Origin: Sinohyriopsis cumingii
Lineage: Eukaryota; Mollusca; Bivalvia; Unionida; Unionidae
DNA length: 64,000 bases
Assembly (NCBI GenBank): GCA_028554795.2
Contig: JAPYKE020000037.1
Coordinates: 5,667,501 to 5,731,500, forward strand
Direction: 5' to 3'
This document shows positions 43,001 through 57,585 of the stretch, piece by piece (positions within the stretch are counted from its first letter, which is position 1; each line of letters begins with the position of its first letter). The translations under genes were made by a program, and so were the position numbers. The notes below the pieces were generated by a model that had not been told where the DNA came from, made no database searches, and saw only the letters and a program-made list of their open reading frames with translations.

Positions 43001-46000
43001 TTAAATATTCATTCTTTTCAGTATTATTTAGCAGGCCGATACACACAAAGACAGTTAAATATGGTACTGGCAACTGCCCCGCTAGCCACTTAGCAATAAG
43101 GGTTAGTGTTAGGACTGACTGACCTGGTGTCAGGTTAATGTGAATGGGTGGGACATCATTCTAAGTGTCTGCGGCATGATGCCCAGTGCTATTCATCGTT
43201 ATTAACTGCCAAACCGCAGGCATCGTAGCGATATGACTGAACGATTGTTAAAGCTACGTTAAAACTTCAAATAGCACACACACACACACACACACACACA
43301 CACACACACACACACACTATAGAATAAGTATTAAGAAGCCAGCGTAGATGCACTCGACATGAGTGTGCTGAATAATGATAAAAATTGTAAACATTTTGAG
43401 GTTTGTAATCTATATGTAGTATTTTCTTTTATTTTGCATTTCACATTTCATTGTCAGTTGACATTTTGTAATTGAATCGATGTTGTCAGGATTCTACATG
43501 TTGCACTACACCACCACTTGAGCAGGTGTATGCAACTTTAAGCTTATTTTCTATTCTGAGCTCTAATAATGTTCCGTTACGTAGACACAATACATAGGCA
43601 AACGATCTATCACACACAGACACATAAACGCTAAAATATTGTACAAAGGAACCTGTCGTTTAGAACCTCATTGGTGCTTTACATTGTATGTTTGTTCCAT
43701 TCATGCGAAAGTAAAGAAAAACTAATAAGTAAAACACAAAGTTGACAGAAGGGTAAATTTTTCTTACACTCATAGTTTAGTTATTCACTTTAACAACCCA
43801 TTTTCCATCATTTTGTATTATAAAACACAATGTTTATATTAGGCGAGATTAGGGCTTTTTCATACACTACGTGATCTGCATATAAACTTTTTTGTTAGCA
43901 ACATTATAAAGTTGGCAAAATAATAAAAGTTTTTTCTGTCCTTTAAATACATGTTTTAGTGTAAGTTTCAAATTTGGGTCAAAAATAACATGTTTCTCCT
44001 GTAGATAAATAATGGACGCATTCATGTGTTTCACACAGTAGAATATATCTCTTATTTTTAAATTGGAACTATGTAGAACCCTGACATACATTGATACAGG
44101 TTTAATCTGCTTATCCATTACTAGTTCTGCTATCTTCTTGAAGTTTTGAAGGCCTAACAGAACTTTGCATTACACGATCAATACCATAAACAGAACCCAC
44201 ATATACCTTTGGATGCACTATTACACATCCACAACACAAAAGTCACTAGTGTGGTACAATATCATGCACCACTCGGTACATGTATGATGTAGGCCCCCAA
44301 AAAGAAACATGGATTATGTTGTACATATGATGCTGATATACTTATAAATAGTTACCATAAATACAGTGTAGCCGTATTAAATTACAACAAACAAACTTTT
44401 ATTCGTTAATATTCTTCCTTTACCAAAATAGGAAAAGCCATTATTATATACAAGTTCTTCATTAATTTGTTGGATATGTATATGCGTGTATACAGGTTAT
44501 TGAAACTTATGCGCGCACACACATGCACACATACATACATACATACACACACACACACACATACATACATACATACATACATACATACATACATACATAC
44601 ATACATACATACATACATACATATTTATGCATTCATATATGCATAAATACATACATGCACATATACATATATACATTTGACCAAGGTCAAGCACACGTAT
44701 AGCATAAGCCCAAATTAAACTGCAAGGTCATGTGAAATGTATTTTAAATTAAATATACTTGCTTACAATAATATGAAATCATTGACAATAGTTTAGTGAA
44801 TGTTAAATTATTTACATGCAATACGATGACAATACTAACAATGGCTACGTATTTTAAATAAACGAGCTTAACAATCATTAAATTACCTTTGTAGCATTGT
44901 ACTCATTGTACCATGCAAGAATAATTTAAAATGGTTCACATCATCTCTGATAAACCTCTTCTCTTATTCCTGAACCACTAGGGTTCTAACAAAACTTTTC
45001 TTTTTGAGTGAATATAGGGTTAGTAAATCTTTAAAACGGATCCATGAATTCGTATTACTTATTTCTACGCGATACATGCATATTTATATTTCAAAGATAG
45101 CTAAAGTACTGCATGGATGAAGCTTATTTTTAATTTTTCAATGAATTATGTGAAGCAAAGATTTTCTATTTGTATTCATTACGGTTCCCTGAAGAAGAAG
45201 AAAAAAAGACAGTTATTTGTTATACATTTTGAATTTACAAATTACAATATATATTGCTTCAAACGTATTCGTAATCAAGATCCCGAGTTAAATTATGGAT
45301 TATTTTGAGAAATGTTTCTTCGTTTATTTTCCTTAATGAAACCTCGAACACTTTTCTAGACCGAATTAGCATAGTTGCATACCGTAAGCATTACATTTAC
45401 TGAGTTAAAATGCGGTAAATATTTAATTTTTCCTTTTATAATTTTCCGTCATGCGAATCATGGATGATTCTAACACTAATTTAGACGTTTGCACGATTTT
45501 CCTTGTTGACAACTGTAGCTTTTGACAAGTTTTAGTTTCATGCTTGCGTTGCTGCACCTTTGCATCACGCTCTTGCATCGTTCTTTTTAAAGTTATTCAT
45601 CTTTGTTCCGTCTGGAAATACAACATGCTTAAACAAAGAAAACCTTGCATGTGGCTCGGTTACTATGCAAGTTTCCCTTATTAATGTTCCCACTAGAGCC
45701 ATTGTATTATTTTCATAGATGGGTTAAACAGTTGAAGGGGATCCGATTTACATCAATTATTTCATAATGGCAAATGTAATCGGGAAAAGAAGGATTGGGA
45801 TCATATTAATATACTCCGGAATAATAGTTCGCCGCCCTTTCACATGTGGAATTTATGACCGAATTTGTACTGCTTTAAATAAAATTTTCGCCGAGTCTTG
45901 CAACAGAAATTCTGACAGTCTGACATCCATATTTTATGTATTTTAAATTATTTTGCATCTGTTCTCCGTTCTCATATATTTAGTACTATTATGCGCATAT

Positions 46001-57551: not shown

Positions 57552-57585
57552 GTGAGTACATCCTTTAAGTTTGTATGCAATGTTG

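Follow-up and report, generated by a model that had tools for sequence, protein, structure and literature searches.

Probable kilobase target-site duplications at copies of a (CATA)n-associated LINE in Sinohyriopsis cumingii

The window, by which we mean the whole 64,000-nucleotide stretch of Sinohyriopsis cumingii DNA that was analysed, contains a 7.5-kb LINE lying between two long direct repeats. Its features are as follows.

44560..44623, + strand: (CATA)16 microsatellite, the putative target of the first nick, within which the left repeat copy starts
44592..47347, + strand: left copy of the putative 2.75-kb target-site duplication
47348..47363, + strand: 16 extra nucleotides at the 5' junction, absent from the right repeat copy and unseen before GGACAAGG in the other copies read
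47364..54837, + strand: LINE, near full length
48854..50473, + strand: ORF1, 539 codons, interrupted in frame by a single TGA (49124-49126, codon 91)
50505..54068, + strand: ORF2, 1,187 residues, stop-free, with an AP-type endonuclease (PF03372) and a reverse transcriptase (PF00078)
54814..54837, + strand: AATAAA and, after it, the (GTCA)n tail that ends the LINE
54838..57585, + strand: right copy of the putative 2.75-kb target-site duplication, opening with (CATA)8
57586..57843, + strand: apparently native right flank; a paralogue on C15 runs from repeat into flank with no LINE between (82% over the compared stretch)

The two ORF2 domains were assigned by Pfam matches (PF00078, E=1.3e-23; PF03372, E=1.3e-8), and the closest solved structures in the PDB, by sequence similarity, were L1 ORF2 and R2. 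Relatives of ORF2 were found at 80% identity, as well as two scallop proteins at 46% and 43%, and the named relatives of the LINE proteins were mollusc proteins. No match to the ORF2 protein was found among phages or in IMG/VR, nor any to the LINE DNA among plasmids, and neither Rfam (gathering threshold) nor a tRNA scan gave a hit in the window. ORF1 had nothing above the cut-off in Pfam. In the freshwater mussel Sinanodonta woodiana, a protein that carries the UniRef label 'CARD domain-containing' was 77% identical to it over 284 residues. If the hosts are distant, this identity would be high for a LINE ORF1, which makes strong constraint and horizontal transfer worth considering.

Based on the presence of a reverse transcriptase and an AP-type endonuclease within one ORF, the element is assigned to the APE-type non-LTR retrotransposons. 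Long terminal repeats belonging to the LINE were absent, as the flanking repeats vary from copy to copy. The constant 3' end, (GTCA)n and then CATA, together with a variable 5' junction, fits the same class.

Alignment within the window showed that 44592-47347 and 54838-57585 form a direct repeat pair that is 99.5% identical, with 5 mismatches and 3 indels (2, 4 and 2 bases, each within a simple-sequence tract). The original prediction of a LINE between two near-identical direct copies was thus borne out, the length being 2,748 bp in the right copy as against the 2.73 kb first given. It had also been claimed that both LINE ends are flush with the repeats. This held at the 3' end, where the LINE terminus reads AATAAAGTCAGTCAGTCAGTCAGT and the (CATA)8 of the right repeat begins directly after it, but not at the 5' end, where the 16 nucleotides part the left repeat from the LINE. 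Outside the repeat ends the likeness stopped immediately: none of the first 10 bases was equal between the LINE side and the right flank, and 4 of the last 10 were equal between the left flank and the LINE tail. The outer flanks of the repeat-LINE-repeat composite, 12 bases each, did not match one another, and no short duplication adjoining the LINE ends was found in the window. Elsewhere in the window there was no comparable direct repeat above 200 bp, the others listed being 306 bp at 72.5% and 281 bp at 82%, and the number of N bases was zero.

The divergence between the two copies was 0.15% (95% interval 0.04-0.40%), calculated from 4 mismatches over ~2,590 bp, with the fifth mismatch, which adjoins an indel, set aside. 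Because the copies diverge by only about 0.15%, the duplication in the window appears to be recent, in agreement with the earlier reading of the few substitutions.

A search of the 2.9-Gb assembly (1,138 contigs) with the window repeat identified two copies at ~100%, both in the window, among the best 40 of 557 candidates scored. Within those same 40, the remaining matches of at least 500 bp were 63-77% identical, and short simple-sequence pieces reached up to 100%. The best paralogue, on C15, was 75% identical to the repeat and continued directly into the right flank of the window (82% over both), while a query of repeat plus LINE matched this paralogue only as far as the junction. Within the limits of a diverged paralogue, this LINE-free arrangement suggests that the LINE was inserted next to a native right flank. 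The diverged matches were numerous; they lay at C37:4.89-6.56M, on the contig of the window, and on C15, and look like an older local segment family. In addition, the window holds an older inverted repeat (2-2672 and 17612-20220), whose arms are 75% identical along 2.7 kb and which has smaller inverted segments close by.

Other copies of the element were sampled by its 5' end. This genome search gave 43 matches, with 40 of 159 candidates scored, which were grouped into 31 loci with arrays counted once. Among these best 40 of 159, a long direct duplication reaching from the LINE 3' end to the 5' end was found at 12 of the 31 loci, the window included, and its length ranged from 0.36 to 8.3 kb. 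The duplicated sequence was locus-specific, differing at each LINE copy. Seven of the 12 were read at both ends and 5 at part of the ends, as follows.

Window: 2,748 bp, both ends read
C12:4967025: 360 bp, both ends read
C31:3418353: 527 bp, both ends read
C14:10410209: ~1,270 bp, both ends read; the duplication ends 245 nucleotides before the LINE
C11:111271863: ~4.4 kb, both ends read
C5:121772350: ~390 bp, both ends read
C14:23.66-23.68M array: ~2.4 kb, both ends read
C9:10181171: 887 bp, partial; 506 bp of the 5' flank recurs downstream
C6:63143410: ~8.3 kb, partial; a ~300-base piece of the 5' flank recurs at 100%
C1:62817417: ~4.2 kb, partial; a ~300-base piece of the 5' flank recurs at 99%
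C10:120.5M array: ~8.2 kb, partial ends
C1:118.9M array: ~4.3 kb, partial ends

For the C10 and C1:118.9M arrays the call was based on shared flanks: the first and second copies are preceded by the same sequence, and the first and last copies are followed by the same sequence. At C1:62817417 a third copy of the flank (96%) lay ~230 kb distant. The LINE copy at C1:62817417-62827300 measured 9.9 kb from 5' to 3' end as against 7.5 kb, such that ~2.4 kb may be inserted in it. Divergence within the repeat pairs of the other loci was 0 to 1.8%, with some pairs at 0.8 to 1.8%.

In all, 22 of the 31 loci carried a call: the 12 with a duplication, 3 at which both junctions lay inside a CATA tract (C1:161384456, C5:149407454 and C2:17131698), and 7 at which no direct duplication was present within the sequence searched. 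For three of these seven (C5:72884208, C4:22515614 and C4:4874744) the absence was judged from the flank piece being listed once at high identity; at the latter two the LINE 3' end was not located. At C18:61306335 there was no duplication in the 7.9 kb downstream, which was the sole basis of the call as the flank was absent from the genome listing. Neither 2.5 kb of sequence nor the genome search showed a duplication at C5:77739404, whose flank is a dispersed repeat with its next best copy at 92%, and none was present in 2.5 kb at the 5'-truncated copy C4:20258906. The seventh, the near-full-length copy C16:57433936, had no direct duplication; its 5' flank, which is also a dispersed repeat, recurred in inverted orientation at 98% identity ~1 kb past the 3' end. 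The loci outside the calls were C14:22446403, C11:2520036, C12:34200583, C92:1570266 (its LINE cut off by the end of the contig), the C1:130.48M pair, C8:107540083, C9:115680733, C31:3398095 and C4:60166476.

A second sample was drawn by the LINE 3' end. Of 991 first-look candidates 40 were scored; 18 downstream flanks were read and 12 were used as queries, 6 of the 18 being excluded as simple sequence or transposon- or LINE-like. Judged by position, 4 of the 12 loci had their flank duplicated beyond the LINE.

C16:42350177: flank copy 8,504 bp upstream; ~1.0 kb duplication if the LINE is full length
C10:53170366: flank copy 9,021 bp upstream; ~1.5 kb if the LINE is full length; more copies on the contig
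C1:131649849: flank copy 10,807 bp upstream; ~3.3 kb if the LINE is full length
C14:75950838: flank copy 12,531 bp upstream; ~5.1 kb if the LINE is full length; a complex tandem locus

At the other 8 of the 12 there was no far-side duplication by the position test, which short duplications escape; among them C18:62297152 had a flank copy 98 kb away and C14:48115646 lay amid local repeats. Long duplication is therefore common and not universal, and in these samples it was commoner among the copies chosen by their 5' end.

Two controls were available for the background of local duplication. In 7 loci with ~8 to 10 kb of flank on each side, a match of at least 300 bp and at least 97% identity was found once in each of 3 loci, where it was the LINE-adjoining duplication each time, and in none of the other 4. 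A genome-wide control, which was weak, consisted of 11 random flank segments; one transposon segment filled the matches listed, and 8 of the 11 segments appeared. Among the matches listed, none of these 8 had a second copy within 20 kb of its own place, a count in which lesser copies were possibly missed.

The 3' junctions were more uniform. A strict CATA pattern (CATACATA or CATACATG) lay within 48 nucleotides past the LINE end in 20 of 23 rows and at 18 of 20 loci, the pattern failing at C10 and C4:20258906. It was present at 0.6% of window positions and at 2.3% of mid-positions in the fetched 9.9-kb loci. The count leaves out C14:22446403, C4:4874744, C11:2520036, C12:34200583 and C4:22515614, as the 3' end was absent from the fetched sequence. 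In 18 further 3' flanks, read from 30 nucleotides past the match, CATA units were present in 13 and none were seen in 5. Together, these sequences point to a microsatellite-targeted LINE with its 3' end fixed on (CATA)n. Non-LTR elements that target microsatellites include Kibi and Koshi of the Tx1 clade and Waldo and Mino of arthropods, all with the 3' end on a simple repeat. Here the target would be (CATA)n and the tail is (GTCA)n. To our knowledge, kilobase duplications are not a feature of Kibi, Koshi, Waldo or Mino.

The 5' junctions varied. Other LINE copies aligned only from window position 47364 onward, and at 17 of the 24 other loci read AAGATGGC stood directly before GGACAAGG, where the window has 16 dissimilar nucleotides instead. 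Between the duplication and GGACAAGG there were 3 to 27 nucleotides at 6 loci including the window, and 245 at C14:10410209. These 245 nucleotides include CATA units, and C92:1570266 carries the same pre-LINE sequence over the part read. Since C92 shares this upstream sequence, the extra 245 nucleotides at C14:10410209 are possibly a 5' transduction. At the far ends of 8 duplications no common motif was seen by eye, and no CATA tract stood at the far boundary in these 8.

Based on these observations, the kilobase direct repeats are most readily assigned as target-site duplications, as they adjoin both ends of the insert and differ at each insertion. The same geometry with a different sequence at each locus argues for this assignment and against LTRs, a tandem duplication by chance or one isolated misassembly, and it lends support to the giant target-site duplication of the original prediction. 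The few to tens of bases that are the norm for LINEs do not describe the 12 long loci. We consider it probable, at roughly 0.88, that LINE and duplication arose in one insertion event. As the 3' end is fixed on CATA and the duplication is variable, the first nick looks fixed, while the joining of the second strand would wander over kilobases.

We propose that the endonuclease of the element cuts the microsatellite on its bottom strand, (TATG)n, and that cDNA is primed at this nick by target-primed reverse transcription. Unlike in the LINEs studied so far, there would usually be no coupled second-strand nick nearby, and the 3' end of the cDNA would instead be linked to a 3' end of the top strand at a downstream distance of up to several kilobases. 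Fill-in would then duplicate all of the sequence between the two points, a distance of 2,748 bp in the window. Copies with a non-CATA, unduplicated 5' flank could be target deletions that stem from the same looseness. The most likely source of the distant top-strand end would be a replication fork or a sister chromatid, a proposal to which we give even odds. Template switching during repair, which had been put forward as an alternative, stays as a possible form of the second-strand join and so becomes a sub-question of the same event. The product alone does not distinguish between a distant nick, a break in the sister chromatid and a fork's leading strand. A more specific and speculative version, which we regard as unlikely, is that the leading strand of a fork that has moved past the target captures the cDNA, such that duplication length would record the travel of the fork during copying and the repeats would seed arrays. 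If that were the case, this genome would be continually supplied with segmental duplications by LINE arrays with neighbouring DNA.

Within the same single event, a true staggered break is also conceivable, with the top strand cut kilobases away by the element's own endonuclease or at a nick already present, the duplex unwound and both strands filled in. The end product would be identical, and the authors of PMC5223499 consider that strand displacement may extend to an unrelated nick far away. However, up to 8 kb of unwinding would be needed, and the lack of a common motif by eye at 8 far ends makes a cut by the element's own endonuclease unlikely; we hold this reading to be possible, if somewhat doubtful. 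Explanations that separate the LINE from the duplication fared worse. If homologous chromosomes carried LINE insertions offset by 2.75 kb, a crossover between the two could give a clean repeat-LINE-repeat, and exchange between copies or flanks is likely given that regular LINE arrays exist. Nevertheless, two same-orientation insertions within kilobases would be required at every such locus, and the far boundary lacks a CATA tract in the 8 sites read, unlike a second LINE target, which leaves this explanation improbable.

An assembly artefact, either a haplotype chimera or a duplicated contig piece, deserves mention because the ~0.15% divergence of the copies is a level that allelic differences could reach. 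Against it, the window has no N, the joins coincide with LINE ends at many loci and some repeat pairs differ by 0.8 to 1.8%, so that we regard it as very improbable. It had also been suggested that a tandem duplication captured the LINE. Local duplication does occur, as seen in the diverged matches (63-77%, at least 500 bp) on the window contig and C15, but had the LINE been captured or landed later on a junction already formed, the coincidence would have to recur at more than 10 loci, and no short duplication is present at the LINE ends; this order of events is disfavoured to the point of being extremely improbable. Finally, near-identical direct repeats around a reverse transcriptase gene recall the LTRs of a retrotransposon. 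The outer 12-base flanks of the composite are unlike, the repeat differs at each element copy and the protein combines APE and RT, and the LTR reading is refuted.

Insertion with duplication in one event has partial precedents. According to Servant et al. (PMC5223499), engineered human L1 in XPA-, XPC- or XPD-deficient cells produced duplications from a few base pairs to kilobases, with table rows up to 6,765 bp (5.3 kb in the text) and a median of 1,495 bp in deficient cells. Most of the duplications there were at typical endonuclease sites, and events above 100 bp in HeLa were never above 10%. Both systems show kilobase duplications, but those were obtained with marked constructs in cultured repair-deficient cells, whereas the ones described here are heritable in a genome assembly. 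In PMC7058536, a tumour L1 lies at a tandem-duplication junction, and the authors propose that its cDNA invades the sister chromatid at a 3' overhang located downstream. A single LINE at a duplication junction is common to both; that case was somatic, a single one of 22.6 Mb with a small L1, and neither habitual nor germline.

Canonical germline LINEs share target-primed insertion with duplication, but there the lengths are 3 to ~21 bp: a median of 21 bp for canonical human mobile-element insertions (PMC12350158), a peak at 14-16 bp for full-length L1 in a survey that collected only 5-30 bp (PMC2912911), and clade-specific peaks of 3 to 15 bp (PMC4245944). According to PMC2912911, extreme lengths in HeLa accompany 5'-truncated copies, whereas the long duplications here flank near-full-length copies. 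In a literature search made mostly without subscription journals, we found no natural LINE family described as producing kilobase duplications habitually in the germline, and the term 'target site duplication' is absent from the octopus papers PMC13282606 and PMC9115989.

Second-strand joining is the least understood step of the LINE life cycle. Many germline junctions would be open to study, without the need for repair-mutant cell lines, in a natural family whose first nick is fixed and whose second join ranges freely, and whether the cause lies in the enzyme of the element or in host repair is a directly testable question. If the behaviour is general, surveys limited to duplications of 5 to 30 bp overlook such events, and segmental duplications of kilobase size, like LINE arrays, would arise directly from a LINE.

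Four arrays were observed in which LINE copies follow at near-regular steps: ~9.38 kb at C14:123.15-123.22M, ~19.15 kb at C11:41.74-41.78M, ~15.7 kb at C10:120.50-120.55M, where the unit contains a further LINE 3' end, and 11.4-11.9 kb at C1:118.91-118.95M. Arrays of constant step would fit later unequal exchange between long duplications. In addition, 14 of the 40 scored 3' ends were followed, ~17 to 86 bp on and in the same orientation, by a second LINE 3' end of 92-94% identity. Such doubled 3' ends were present at C1:62827318, C4:60158497, C8:107547354 and C7:37967353, and in the arrays at C11:41.74-41.78M and C14:123.15-123.22M.
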